Made by a program: the position numbers and the translations under genes. DNA of 36,164 nucleotides from an uncultured Olsenella sp. (GTDB lineage Bacteria > Actinomycetota > Coriobacteriia > Coriobacteriales > Atopobiaceae): assembly GCA_949287335.1 (NCBI GenBank), contig CASEGE010000018.1:1-36164 (forward strand), written 5' to 3'. Position 1 is the stretch's first letter. Each line of letters starts with the position of its first letter. Of this stretch, positions 1-24,547 are shown piece by piece. The notes under the pieces were generated by a model. It saw only the letters and a list, made by a program, of their open reading frames with translations. It did not search any database and was not told the origin of the DNA.

Positions 1-1241
1 CGGCGCTCGAACCACGCGCGCGTCCACAGCGACTGCGCCTCGAGGTGCGCGGGCGGCATGTGGGCGGGGTCGGTTGAGTACTGGCCCCTCCGGCCGCGCA
101 GCCTCCGGTGCTCGGCGACGACCTCGCCGCCGTCCAGGACGGCGACCGTCGCGGCGCCGAGCCTGACGTCGACGGTCCTGCCGACCAGGCGGTGCGGCAC
201 GGAGTAGCGCATGTTGTCGCACTGCACGTGGTAGTCCGGCGACACCTTGCAGCGGCGCCACTCGTACCACTCGAAGGGGGCCGCGGGCAGCGGGCTCAGC
301 GCGGCCCTCTCCTCGCCGAGGAAGGCGTCGTCGCGGCTGCCCTCGCGCCTGGAGAACGGGCGGGCGTTGAGCGCGTCGACGAGGCGGCGCACCTCGGCGT
401 TCAGCTCATCGAAGGACGTGAACCTCTCCTCGGCCAGCGGGGCGAGCACCCACGTCTCGCACAGGTCGACGGCCTTCTCCGCGGACGCCTTGTCCCTCGG
501 CCTGCGCACGCGCGCCGGGACCACCGCGCAGCCGTAGTGCTCGGCCATCTCGAGGTAGGCGTCGTTGACCTTCACCGGCTCCGACCTGCGGCGGCGGTCC
601 GTGGCGGTGGCGCAGTTGTCGGGCACGAGGATGTCGGGGACCCCGCCGGCGGCCCGGAAGGCGTGCACGTGGGCCTGGATCCAGGAGCGCGTCCGCATGT
701 CGGGGAAGCACTCCGCGTAGACCCACGCCGACCAGGGGAACGACGCGACGAACAGGTACGCCGGCGACCGCCTGCCCGTCACGGGGTCGAAGACCGAGGC
801 GGCGAGCCCGGCCCAGTCGACGAGCATCGTCCTGCCGGGCTCGTGCGCGATGCGGGCGACGAGGTCGTGCGTCCGGGCGTAGTCGCCGACCTTCTTGCAG
901 AACTGCGAGTACTGGTAGAGGCGCTTGCCGCGCGGGTTACAATCGAGGTAGCGCGCCCACCGCGGCGCGAGCGTCATCTTCGGCACCCTCGCGAGCTGGT
1001 CGCAGACGCGCGCGTAGTCGGGCTCGAGGTACTCTTCGCCGCGCTTTGACCGGCCGTCGGCGAAGAGGCCCGAGACCTCCGCGTCCGTCATCGACTCCAG
1101 CCTCTCGGCGCCGATGCGCTCCTCCTCCATCTTCGCGGCGCACTTCGCCACCGTCGCCTTGCTGCAGCCGAGGGACCGGGCGGCCTCGTTCCAGCTCACC
1201 CCCCTCAGCAGCTGGCGCATAATCTCCTTCTTCGTGGCCAT
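1..1241 (-). CDS. istA: IS21-family transposase IstA (3' end cut by window edge)
   Basis: This is a DDE transposase that cuts and joins the ends of an IS21-type element; its ATPase partner IstB would lie beyond position 1. The frame is open from the ATG at 1241 to the window edge, giving 413 codons without a stop. Residues 14-35 look like a helix-turn-helix (WNEAARSLGCSKATVAK), as in IstA N-termini. The integrase-like core shows a DDE set: D142 in VDWAG, D208 in VPDNC and E255 in KASAEKAV. After the core comes a basic, beta-rich region (around YSVPHRLVGRTVDVR), typical of the IstA C-terminal part. Nothing visible is broken, so the gene may be functional, but the C-terminus is unseen. A long frame also exists on the opposite strand and is treated as a shadow of this gene. 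Confidence 0.93.
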   Translation of the reverse strand, partial: MATKKEIMRQLLRGVSWNEAARSLGCSKATVAKCAAKMEEERIGAERLESMTDAEVSGLFADGRSKRGEEYLEPDYARVCDQLARVPKMTLAPRWARYLDCNPRGKRLYQYSQFCKKVGDYARTHDLVARIAHEPGRTMLVDWAGLAASVFDPVTGRRSPAYLFVASFPWSAWVYAECFPDMRTRSWIQAHVHAFRAAGGVPDILVPDNCATATDRRRRSEPVKVNDAYLEMAEHYGCAVVPARVRRPRDKASAEKAVDLCETWVLAPLAEERFTSFDELNAEVRRLVDALNARPFSRREGSRDDAFLGEERAALSPLPAAPFEWYEWRRCKVSPDYHVQCDNMRYSVPHRLVGRTVDVRLGAATVAVLDGGEVVAEHRRLRGRRGQYSTDPAHMPPAHLEAQSLWTRAWFER

Positions 1242-1310
1242 GCGGGCCCCCTTCCAACGGGCGAGGGCGCCCGGATGGCGCCCTCCTCACTGAAAGGCTA
1301 TTGGATTCAC

Positions 1311-1376
1311 CGGCCGGTACCGGTTATACGGAACGCCGGTACCGCATATGCAGAACGGCGGTACCAACTAGGTGCA
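1311..1376. repeat. 22-bp tandem terminal repeats of the IS21-type element
   Basis: The palindrome GGTACC occurs at 1316-1321, 1338-1343 and 1360-1365, exactly 22 bp apart. The flanking bases are also repeated: on the minus strand the units read GGTACCGCCGTTCTGCATAT and GGTACCGGCGTTCCGTATAA, each 22 bp in full. Multiple terminal repeats of this size are characteristic of IS21-family ends, where the transposase binds. They lie between the istA start and the presumed outer end at 1376. Confidence 0.75.
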
Positions 1377-1391
1377 GTACTCAAGGAGCAC

Positions 1392-3542
1392 ATGAGGGGA
1401 AAGGTCTTTGGTCCCTCGGTTGCGGCTTCGGTCCTGGTTGCGGGCGCCCTTGTCCTCTGTCCTGGCGTGGCGGCCGTGGCAGACGAAATAACGCCGGTAG
1501 AGGGTTCTGAGGAAATAGTCCTTACGGCGGGGGAGTCCGATGACAAGACGTTGCCCCAGACTACGCTGGACGACTCTCCCATACCAAGCGCTACCCAGAC
1601 GGACGATGACCTTCTCACGGCCCCTGTTGAGGACGACGCCATCCCCAATGAGGATTCAACCAAAGTTGATTCCTCTTTGCCCTTGGACGATGAGGGCGAG
1701 AAGCCCTAGGATCCGCAGGGCGTTACCGAGGAGGATTTGGAGGGCGAATCCGACGATGACGTCACGCAAGATCCTGAGAACGTGTCTGAGGAGGACGTCA
1801 TTGACGACAAGACGCCTGAGGTGCCTTCCGTGCCGCAGGATCCCGTTGAGGATGCTGAGGGTGACGTTGTCCTTGATGACGACCCAATGCCCGGCGACGA
1901 CGATTCCAGCGCCGTTGTGACGACTGAGCCCGCTGAGCCCGTCGAGCAGAAGCCGTCCCAGACCCCGACCTCCCAGGCTCCGACCCTTAAGGCACCCTCC
2001 GCGACTACCAACGCGGTTTTCGCCGACAAGACGGAGGGGACGTCCGCCAAGGAGGATGTCGAAGCGACTGATGCCGTCTCCACCCAGACTCTTGAGGACG
2101 ACAAGGACGCCGACTCCAAGGACGCCTCGACCAAAGAAGATGCCGAGAATGCCGCTGAGCCCAAGGCCGCTGCGAAGGCAAAGGCCGAGAACGTCACGCT
2201 CTACCGTCTCTACAATCCCAACTCTGGCGAGCACCTTTACACCGAGGATGCCCACGAGCGAGACGTGCTCGCGCGCATCGGCTGGGTTTACGAGGGCTCG
2301 GCGTGGGTTTCTCCCGGCAAGTCCGAGGCTGTGGTCTATCGACTCTATAACCCCAACACGGGTGATCACCACTACACCAAGGACAAGCACGAGTATGACA
2401 CCCTTGGTAAGCTTGGCTGGAAGCAGGAGGGCAGGGCATGGTACGGCGCGGCCTCCACAGAGACCGCTCTCTTCCGCCTCTATAACCCCAACGCCTACGT
2501 TGGCACCCACCACTACACCTCGGACGCCAACGAGCGCCTGAACATGGTTGCCAACGGCTGGGTTTACGAGGGGATTGCCTGGTATGGCGTTGACATGGGA
2601 CCGGTTGCTCCCACGGGTGCCAAGCCCGGCTGGACGAGCAGCGGCGGCGCCAAGTTCTACATCAAGTCCGACGGCACGGCGGCAACGGGCTGGCAGACCA
2701 TCAACAACAAGCGCTACCACTTTGACAACAAGGGGCGCGCCTCGACGGGCGTTCAGGACGTTGACGGGAAGATCTACTACTTCGCGAGCGACGGCACCAC
2801 CAAGACGACCTGGCAGAAGCTCTCCGGCTACTGGTACTACTTCGACCCCTCGAGCGGTGCGCTGAGGCGTGACGGCTGGTTCACCCAGGGCAACGTCACC
2901 TACTACCTTGACCCCACCTCTGGCGCCATGGCCACGGGGGACAAGTGGATTGGCGGGTACCTGCGCAGCTTCACCTCCGACGGCGTCTGCACCAAGACCG
3001 GCTATCAGGTGAAGTGGAAGAACCTCTCGCTCTCCTCGCAGAACGTTACGCTCCCGAGCTACGCCAACGGCTCGTACTGGAGCTACGTGCACCCCACTAT
3101 CATCTCCGCTGACGCCACGCGCTCCGAGTGCATCGAGGCCTTCATCTCCGTTGCCTACGAGTACATGAGTGCCGGCACGCGCTGGGTGGACAACAACTGC
3201 AGCCGCCCCGGCACCACGGTCGACTGCTCCGGCCTTGTGATGGAGGGCCTTTACGCGTGCGGCATGGACCTCACGGGTGCCGCGGGCGGGGACTACAACC
3301 CCTACAGCAAGTACTACTGGAACCATAGCTTTGCCAACACCTGGAGAAAGAACCAGACCTTCCAGCCGGTCTCGCTCAGTAAGATCGAGCGCGGCGACAT
3401 CATCTACTACGAGGGCCACGTTGCCATCTACCTTGGCAACGGGAAGATCATCGAGTCCACCTCGGTAGCGTCTAACGTGCGTGTGGGGAGCATGTACGCG
3501 CCGGGAACCATACTCGGGGCGGCGCGACCCTTTACCAAGTAA
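1392..3542 (+). pseudogene. Secreted NlpC/P60 cell-wall hydrolase with DUF5648 and choline-binding-type repeats, interrupted by an in-frame TAG
   Basis: The ATG at 1392 follows AAGGAG (1383-1388) by only 3 bp. It starts a clear signal peptide (MRGKVFGPS, hydrophobic core, cleavage near AVA-30). A very acidic, low-complexity stalk follows. Codon 106 (1707-1709) is TAG, yet the same frame stays open through 1710-3542 with unchanged composition, so one gene is interrupted by a single stop, probably CAG to TAG. Downstream of the stalk are three DUF5648-like repeats (YRLYNPNSGEHLYT, YRLYNPNTGDHHYT, FRLYNPNAYVGTHHYT). Next come choline/glucan-binding-type repeats (GWQTINNKRYHF, GKIYYFASDG, YWYYFDPSSG). 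The C-terminus is an NlpC/P60 domain with its cysteine in DCSGL (C612) and a histidine in EGHVAIYLG (H676). The intact protein would be an exported peptidoglycan endopeptidase of about 716 residues. As read, only a 105-residue exported acidic peptide would be made unless the stop is read through. A TTG at 1737 could restart the frame but would lack a signal peptide. Confidence 0.85.
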
Positions 3543-3971: not shown

Positions 3972-5330
3972 ATGGAGATAACGGGAGCCATCTTTGACTG
4001 CGACGGCACGCTCGTCGACTCGATGAGCATGTGGAAGGGTTCCTACGACTGGCTCTACGCCCATTACGGCGTTCCCGGCGCGCCCATGGAGGTCGTTGAG
4101 CCGCTCTCCCTTGCGGACGCGTGCGACCTCTTCTACAACGAGTACGGTATGGGCTCCTCTCCCGAGGAGGTCTACGAGACGCTCTGCGCCCACGTGCGCG
4201 AGGGCTACGAGACCGTGGTCACGCTCATGCCCGGTGTGCGCGATTTCCTTGATGAGCTGCGCGCGGCGGGCGTTCCCATGATCATCGCCTCGTCCACGCC
4301 GGTGCGCGAGCTCAGGCACGCGCTTGCGACCCATGGCCTGACGGACTACTTCCTTGACGTTGTGAGCACCGAGGACGTGGGTGGTAGGGACAAGGAGTTT
4401 CCGGACGTCTACCTTGAGGCGTGCCGTCGCCTGGGAACGAGCCGCGAGACCACGTGGGTCTTCGAGGACGCGCCGTTTGGCGTCCGCTCCGCGCACCGGG
4501 CCGGCTTTGCCGTCGTTGGACTCATGAACGACCACGACGGGCGCCGCGAGGAGGACGTTCGCCCGTGGTGTGACGTGTACTGCCACGGGTACGCCGAGCT
4601 CTCCCTCAACCTGCTGCGAGACTACGAGCGTCCCGTCGCGGCGGTGGGCGACCCCCTGCGCGCCCTTGTGGTGGATGGGTCTCCCGAGCCTAGCTCGCCC
4701 GAGCTCGTGGCGTTTCTTTCCGATGGGTCTGACTACGTGATCTGCGCGGATGGGGGCGCGGACGTGTGCCGTCGCGCCGGCATTGCGCCGGACGTCTTCT
4801 GCGGGGACTCCGACTCGGCGTCGGACGAGGCCGCCTCATGGGCTGCCTCCGCGGCGCGGACCTGCGTGCGCTTTCCCGTTGAGAAGTACGCGACCGACCT
4901 TGCTCTTGCCATCGACTGCGCGCGGCACGAGGCGGCTCGCCGTGCGGCCCCGCTTGCGCTGACGGTGACGTGCGGCTCTGGCGGGCGCGCCGATCACTCT
5001 CTCGCGGTTGTGGGCCTGCTTGCGGGTGCGGGCTGTGCCTCTGCGCGCATCGTTGAGGACGGCTATGAGATGAGGATTGTCTCCCCGGAGGGGGAGAGCT
5101 GCTGGCGGCTGGGTCCAGATGCCGTGGGCAGGACCTTCTCGGCCGTTGCCGTGGCGCCCGACACGTGCGTGAGCGAGCGGGGCATGCAATGGGAGCTTTC
5201 CGACAAGTCCATGGGGCTTCTCGACGACCTGGGCATCTCCAACGTTGTGGTGTCCCCGGACGCCGAGATCTCCTGCACCTCCGGCCGCGTTGCCGCGTAC
5301 GTGCTGGGGACAACAAAAACGCCACAATAA
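3972..5330 (+). CDS. HAD phosphatase fused to thiamine pyrophosphokinase
   Basis: This 452-residue protein has two enzymes in one chain. Residues 1 to about 215 are a beta-phosphoglucomutase-like HAD hydrolase: motif I FDCDGTLVDS with D9 and D11, motif II in IIASSTP, motif III K141, and motif IV FEDAPFG. Residues from about 228 to 452 are a thiamine pyrophosphokinase: CADGGA (258-263), GDSDS (278-282), EKYATDLAL (304-312) and GGRADH (337-342). This enzyme type transfers pyrophosphate from ATP to thiamine, giving thiamine diphosphate. The ATG at 3972 with GGGGGAG just upstream is chosen; the frame is open further upstream but lacks HAD homology there. Thiamine pyrophosphokinase also precedes rpmB in Bacillus (thiN), so the position is conserved and the HAD part is the addition. 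An attractive but unproven idea is that the HAD half dephosphorylates thiamine monophosphate to feed the kinase half. Confidence 0.9.
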   Translation: MEITGAIFDCDGTLVDSMSMWKGSYDWLYAHYGVPGAPMEVVEPLSLADACDLFYNEYGMGSSPEEVYETLCAHVREGYETVVTLMPGVRDFLDELRAAGVPMIIASSTPVRELRHALATHGLTDYFLDVVSTEDVGGRDKEFPDVYLEACRRLGTSRETTWVFEDAPFGVRSAHRAGFAVVGLMNDHDGRREEDVRPWCDVYCHGYAELSLNLLRDYERPVAAVGDPLRALVVDGSPEPSSPELVAFLSDGSDYVICADGGADVCRRAGIAPDVFCGDSDSASDEAASWAASAARTCVRFPVEKYATDLALAIDCARHEAARRAAPLALTVTCGSGGRADHSLAVVGLLAGAGCASARIVEDGYEMRIVSPEGESCWRLGPDAVGRTFSAVAVAPDTCVSERGMQWELSDKSMGLLDDLGISNVVVSPDAEISCTSGRVAAYVLGTTKTPQ

Positions 5331-24000: not shown

Positions 24001-24547
24001 GGTCGCGGACCTCGAGAGCGCCCGCGCGTCCCTGAAGAAGATCACGGCGGCCATCGACCGCAAGATGCGCACGCGCTTCCTGACGGTCTTTGAGAAGGTG
24101 AACGAGAACTTCTCGGAGATCTTCTCGCTGCTCTTCCCCGGTGGCCAGGCGCATATCGAGATGACCGACCCGGACAATCCCTCCGAGACGGGCATCGAGA
24201 TCATCGCGCAGCCGCGCGGCAAGCGCATCGCCAAGATGATGCTCATGAGCGGCGGCGAGAAGTCGCTCACGGCGCTTGCCCTGCTCTTTGCCGTCTACAA
24301 GGTGCGCACCGTCCCGTTCTACGTCTTTGACGAGGTCGAGGCGGCACTTGATGACTCCAACCTCTCCAAGCTGCTCGACGCCATCGAGCGGCTCAAGGAG
24401 AGCACCCAGCTCATCGTGATCTCCCACCAGAGGCGCACGATGGAGCAGGCTGACGTTCTCTATGGCGTGTCGATGCAGGCCGACGGCGTGAGCCACGTGG
24501 TCTCGCAGCGACTCGACCGTGCCACGGGAAAGGTGGTTGATGCATAA
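21011..24547 (+). CDS. smc: Chromosome segregation ATPase SMC
   Basis: This 1178-residue protein has the SMC layout. The N-terminal head carries Walker A GPNGSGKS (31-38). A long coiled coil (about 165-495) leads to a hinge domain (about 500-655), then a second coiled coil (to about 1010). The C-terminal head has signature LMSGGEKS (1078-1085) and Walker B YVFDE (D1107, E1108). SMC, with ScpA and ScpB encoded elsewhere, compacts and separates chromosomes. The GTG at 21011 has AAGGAGA 7 bp upstream. The length is usual for the family. The stop overlaps the ftsY start (ATGCATAA), indicating coupling. The strongly biased coiled-coil composition explains the long shadow frames on both strands. 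Confidence 0.97.
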   Translation: MYLKSLTLKGFKSFADRTQMAFDPGLTVVVGPNGSGKSNVSDAILWVLGEQSAKQLRGQAMEDVIFSGSSARGAVSVAEVTLVLDNSDHTLPIDFSEVGITRRMYRSGESEYLINGSPSRLMDVQDILHDSGLGKDTHSIISQGKLDSILSSRPEERRALIEEAADISKHRRRKERSQRKLVSMDENLSRAKVVSRELSRQLKPLARQVDKAQRARALEDELKELEVQLAVDDLRRLQESYGRLSARGKEADAAIELAQYRFDEKSKELEKLQSLLEQKGLFVGDLGEQRRRMQDVLAQIDADMRVLEEKGRNMVSRLSDMRMQLSSMEKQRADAASEHERLLDELSDMSVRERDLRESVDELSRASHEAVERRRVLDAQISRINSEERAARAEADRETLAYAKLEDQISNAQLEDEMFVSRLEQLEDSVSTAEEALAERIARADEIQDELTSARARAEELSREISRHSSELVAARQAEGEARTALSSSQATLDALRAVDAEVEKASPLVAALVEAEGERVRCRLADLIEADGEIESLVEQLLGDDLAALVVADAVAASSVAERAASLAEKGGRATIVSLSAPSVPATADAPGTPLVERLHVVEGSRALLAALLGDVRLVENVSAAVFAHESFPSLTFVTAEGAVVLPDGRVHVGSVPSSETGALERKRRIRSLTEGMDELCHALEDASARVLEIEESLSAAREEEAALKGDVARLSAELSSVTSERGRLEAQISAAVSERSQVTKRREASREKAAEARGEIEDHRAAARAARERADALASELSEKNDEHQEAISAQGKASRALSDGRLELAMTSERRANLQTRERELGRRVSDLAQRIGATERSSRALEVVRLRVDPLHDIYEAIRERALDWSVRLRDRASLAEADSESLKRTIGDAREAVSVASRELDDARSVASDVKVDLGKLEVQVEAAINAIVATGAVLDEALTIPEPEDRDAAERRVSSLRSQLESIGPVNAVAMDEYLRLKERADYIDEQVADLESARASLKKITAAIDRKMRTRFLTVFEKVNENFSEIFSLLFPGGQAHIEMTDPDNPSETGIEIIAQPRGKRIAKMMLMSGGEKSLTALALLFAVYKVRTVPFYVFDEVEAALDDSNLSKLLDAIERLKESTQLIVISHQRRTMEQADVLYGVSMQADGVSHVVSQRLDRATGKVVDA

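Follow-up and report, generated by a model that had tools for sequence, protein, structure and literature searches.

An uncultured Olsenella carries a gene frame for a secreted NlpC/P60 protein that is split by one TAG codon, and the locus raises the question of whether this codon is read through, belongs to an on/off switch, is a wrong base, or marks the loss of the gene. We analyzed the frame and its surroundings in a stretch of 36,164 nucleotides, referred to as the window, which lies on contig C18. The frame starts with ATG at 1392, meets the TAG at codon 106, and stays open in the same frame for a further 610 codons up to a terminal TAA at 3540–3542. The TAG was the only interruption, and the rest of the frame was without damage. 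The broken gene comprises the following parts:

1392–1706, plus strand: 5' part of the broken gene, 105 codons for the signal peptide and the first stretch of the acidic linker (from the reading frame and orthologues)
1707–1709, plus strand: in-frame TAG, codon 106 (from the reading frame)
1710–3542, plus strand: 3' part of the broken gene with the remaining acidic linker, DUF5648, choline-binding-type repeats, NlpC/P60, and the terminal TAA (from the reading frame and domain matches)

The part 3' of the TAG matched DUF5648 (E 1.6e-46), Choline_bind_3 (E 9.8e-24), Choline_bind_1 (E 3.3e-11), and NLPC_P60 (E 6.8e-11), and the matches to DUF5648, the choline-binding repeats, and NLPC_P60 were all well over the Pfam cut-offs. 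An antisense frame of 686 amino acids overlaps the gene; thus, in this GC-rich DNA, the length of an open frame alone is little proof of a gene, and the frame at 1392–3542 was established as one by its domain matches and orthologues. Restart of translation at the TTG at 1737 was considered and set aside, as the product would have no signal peptide and is unlikely to be functional.

Six close orthologues of 590–796 codons, each with a signal peptide and linker, were found as intact single frames. They belong to Thermophilibacter provencensis (L058), Candidatus Olsenella pullicola (L059), uncultured Olsenella and Atopobiaceae (L061 and L062), Olsenella sp. KH3B4 (L063), and genome G007 (L125). 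As these orthologues read the region as one frame, the two halves in the window belong to one ancestral gene, and the interruption is derived. The position of the TAG is not conserved: the six orthologues have no stop, and the orthologue of Candidatus Olsenella pullistercoris (L060, DXBM01000010.1) has a single in-frame TAA at another position, codon 88 (4992–4994), in its acidic linker.

The initial annotation, which had reported the single TAG correctly, missed the end of an IS21-family element adjoining the gene on its 5' side. The features found there are as follows:

3–1241, minus strand: IS21-family transposase (IstA-like), cut by the contig end (NF033546 transpos_IS21; PF22483 and rve)
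1300–1383, no strand assigned: IS21-family terminal region ending in ...GCAGTACTCA (end motif at two genomic sites, one on C18 and one on C154, oriented toward each other)
1384–1390, plus strand: AGGAGCA, a 7-base target-site duplication common to the end of C154 (flank comparison)

The transposase scored 220 bits against a cut-off of 160 for NF033546, which identifies it as an IS21 IstA. The element runs up to base 1383, with eight bases between it and the start codon, and is followed by AGGAGCAC and then the ATG. Its opposite end was located at the tip of contig C154 by a 70-base match (24371–24440, start approximate), and the end motif occurs at exactly these two sites genome-wide. The sequence directly before the element on C154 is GTGCTAAAGTTCGTTGGTTGACTTTTTT...GAGGAGCA; its core has a single copy in the genome and aligns with the sequence immediately 5' of the gene in T. 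provencensis and Candidatus O. pullicola. The duplicated AGGAGCA likely contains the ribosome-binding site of the NlpC/P60 gene. A conserved upstream block, AAAGTTCGTTGGTTGACTTTTTT, has one copy elsewhere in the genome, at the tip of C154. When the element was removed, the deduced empty site also aligned with the upstream region in T. provencensis and Candidatus O. pullicola.

The order of the contigs was supported by synteny. The 10–14 kb region of C154 matched DNA upstream of the gene in L058, L059, L060, and L061 (81–87% identity), and the window from approximately 3.6 kb matched DNA downstream of the gene in the same four (74–86%); thus, C154 and the window are neighbors across the gene. 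With C154:24328–24529 and window positions 1–1391, the two contigs can be ordered across the unassembled IS21 element. A short frame at the tip of C154, approximately 19 codons long, may be the end of IstB; the middle of the element, including IstB, is absent from the assembly. In T. provencensis and Candidatus O. pullicola, a gene with an L,D-transpeptidase-like C-terminal sequence lies just upstream; C154 has an ABC transporter at this place.

An IS21-type element therefore sits between the upstream (control) block of the gene and its ribosome-binding site and start codon. We infer that the conserved block is the promoter region. The gene is very probably a recently inactivated one, formerly encoding a secreted, cell-wall-binding peptidoglycan hydrolase of the Olsenella/Thermophilibacter group of Atopobiaceae, and lost by ordinary pseudogenization. 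The element went in on the 5' side of the ribosome-binding site, parting it from the upstream region and generating the 7-base duplication, and the frame of the same gene also has the nonsense codon in the acidic linker. The native promoter presumably no longer drives transcription of the gene, and any ribosome that still initiated would probably make only the signal peptide and an acidic peptide of 70–80 residues. Recent pseudogenization is preferred because two disabling features meet in one gene that is intact in relatives, and because the insertion is independent of the one questionable base. Some observations weigh on the other side: insertion sequences can drive adjacent genes, although a crude scan of 1200–1800 retrieved no sigma-70-like promoter or terminator consensus, and the assembly is a draft fragmented into 317 contigs (completeness 88.65%, contamination 6.25%) that does not span the element. 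Furthermore, the downstream domains are without visible decay, as read-through would also predict, and the L060 orthologue has its independent linker stop with no insertion sequence adjoining it and with an upstream block similar to that of the window gene.

The main rival is a single wrong base in the draft consensus at the TAG, or the variant of a minority strain, which would leave the frame whole and the insertion in place. The contaminated, 317-contig draft and the otherwise undamaged frame are in its favor; however, the insertion points independently to inactivation of this gene, and we regard a base error as unlikely.

TAG is an ordinary stop in this genome, which uses the standard code. 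RF1 (prfA) was present with 476.9 bits, over the curated cut-off. Six of the 13 other complete ORFs inspected in the window end in TAG, including those for a dihydrodipicolinate synthetase family protein, a FakA-like protein, and SRP54, and a paralogue on contig C15 ends in TAG as well. Stops were listed inside several other DUF5648 matches; the one checked, that of the C15 paralogue, is an ordinary protein end, since the domain is C-terminal there. A suppressor tRNA with a CTA anticodon, which the initial annotation had suggested looking for, was not found among the tRNA matches typed with ARAGORN in this incomplete genome, in which a truncated match at the end of contig C205 was untyped. Recoding or reassignment of TAG was rejected on the presence of RF1, the lack of a CTA tRNA among those found, and the normal use of TAG as a stop.

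The NlpC part had dN/dS values of 0.14–0.15 in comparisons of the window with the two nearest intact orthologues, and values of 0.05–0.42 were obtained among the remaining orthologue pairs (Nei–Gojobori). As this part is still constrained within the range of the other copies, the inactivation appears to be too recent for visible decay; the low dN/dS is consistent with recent loss and also compatible with residual expression. Belinky et al. (2021) proposed read-through for many in-frame bacterial stops with low dN/dS and found that most in-frame stops persist only for short periods (PMC7918605). By analogy, low-level read-through in the flexible linker could supply a small amount of full-length enzyme, and the acidic setting of the stop, the constrained NlpC part, and the independent linker TAA of L060 would suit this. 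It is nevertheless improbable, given that RF1 is present, the suppressor tRNA was not found, the RNA fold after the TAG is unremarkable (z −1.52), and the insertion cuts off the native upstream region; moreover, the stop differs in position and kind in L060 and is absent from the other close orthologues. Read-through, one of three explanations originally offered for the TAG, thus gained no positive support.

The second, phase-like switching, fared no better. Either the IS21 element or the stop would have to toggle the surface protein reversibly. Surface proteins are often variable, and several related species have homologues disrupted by different routes; however, no simple repeat was visible at the stop, IS21-type elements seldom excise precisely, and we consider switching the least probable of the readings weighed here. 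The third, a nonsense mutation of very recent date, has the strongest support of the three, as orthologues are intact, the downstream domains are constrained, and an IS21-type element separates the gene from its upstream region.

Further stops or frameshifts in relatives had been named as a sign of plain decay: L060 has its TAA, and the distant homologues L132 (G089), L137 (G131), and L142 (G050) appear to be frameshifted within their repeat regions. The family has thus been interrupted several times over by different kinds of change, the pattern expected of decay, whereas programmed read-through predicts the same stop in the same place. Since each of two species independently has one stop in the same linker (TAG in one, TAA in the other) and an otherwise undamaged frame, it is conceivable that linker stops in this family are tolerated or selected, with leaky read-through giving very low expression, but we give this reading very little weight. 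With the linker making up about a third of each protein, we estimate the chance that both stops fall in it at approximately 1 in 10, which is not significant.

Gene inactivation by an insertion sequence and a nonsense codon is of a kind already known. As in other bacterial pseudogenes of this type, there is an insertion sequence with a target-site duplication beside the start codon, an in-frame nonsense codon, and intact orthologues; nothing essential differs, and the window gene is at an early stage of decay. It shares with the stops in genes of dN/dS < 1 described by Belinky et al. (PMC7918605) a single stop, constrained downstream sequence, and recent origin, but here the insertion additionally cuts the gene off from its upstream region, which argues against regulated expression. 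The secreted NlpC/P60 proteins of Atopobiaceae, represented by the Thermophilibacter and Olsenella orthologues, have the same signal peptide, linker, DUF5648, cell-wall-binding repeats, and NlpC/P60, whereas the window copy is interrupted. The locus is a clean snapshot of the loss of a dispensable surface gene in gut Atopobiaceae, and it is a reminder to interpret a lone in-frame stop in the light of the neighboring DNA, here an insertion sequence split over two contigs, before proposing recoding.

The C-terminal region was retrieved at E ≤ 1e-30 in 38 of the 140 genomes of the family and in eight of the 31 of the genus (including the source genome; one match was weak). Its lack in most of the genus indicates that the gene is dispensable. 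Three genomes of the same genus (G009, G010, and G025) each had at least 40 matches to the NlpC/P60 protein, mostly to its DUF5648 part, and most sister species had few or none, a pattern that corresponds to a large expansion of DUF5648 proteins in these three.
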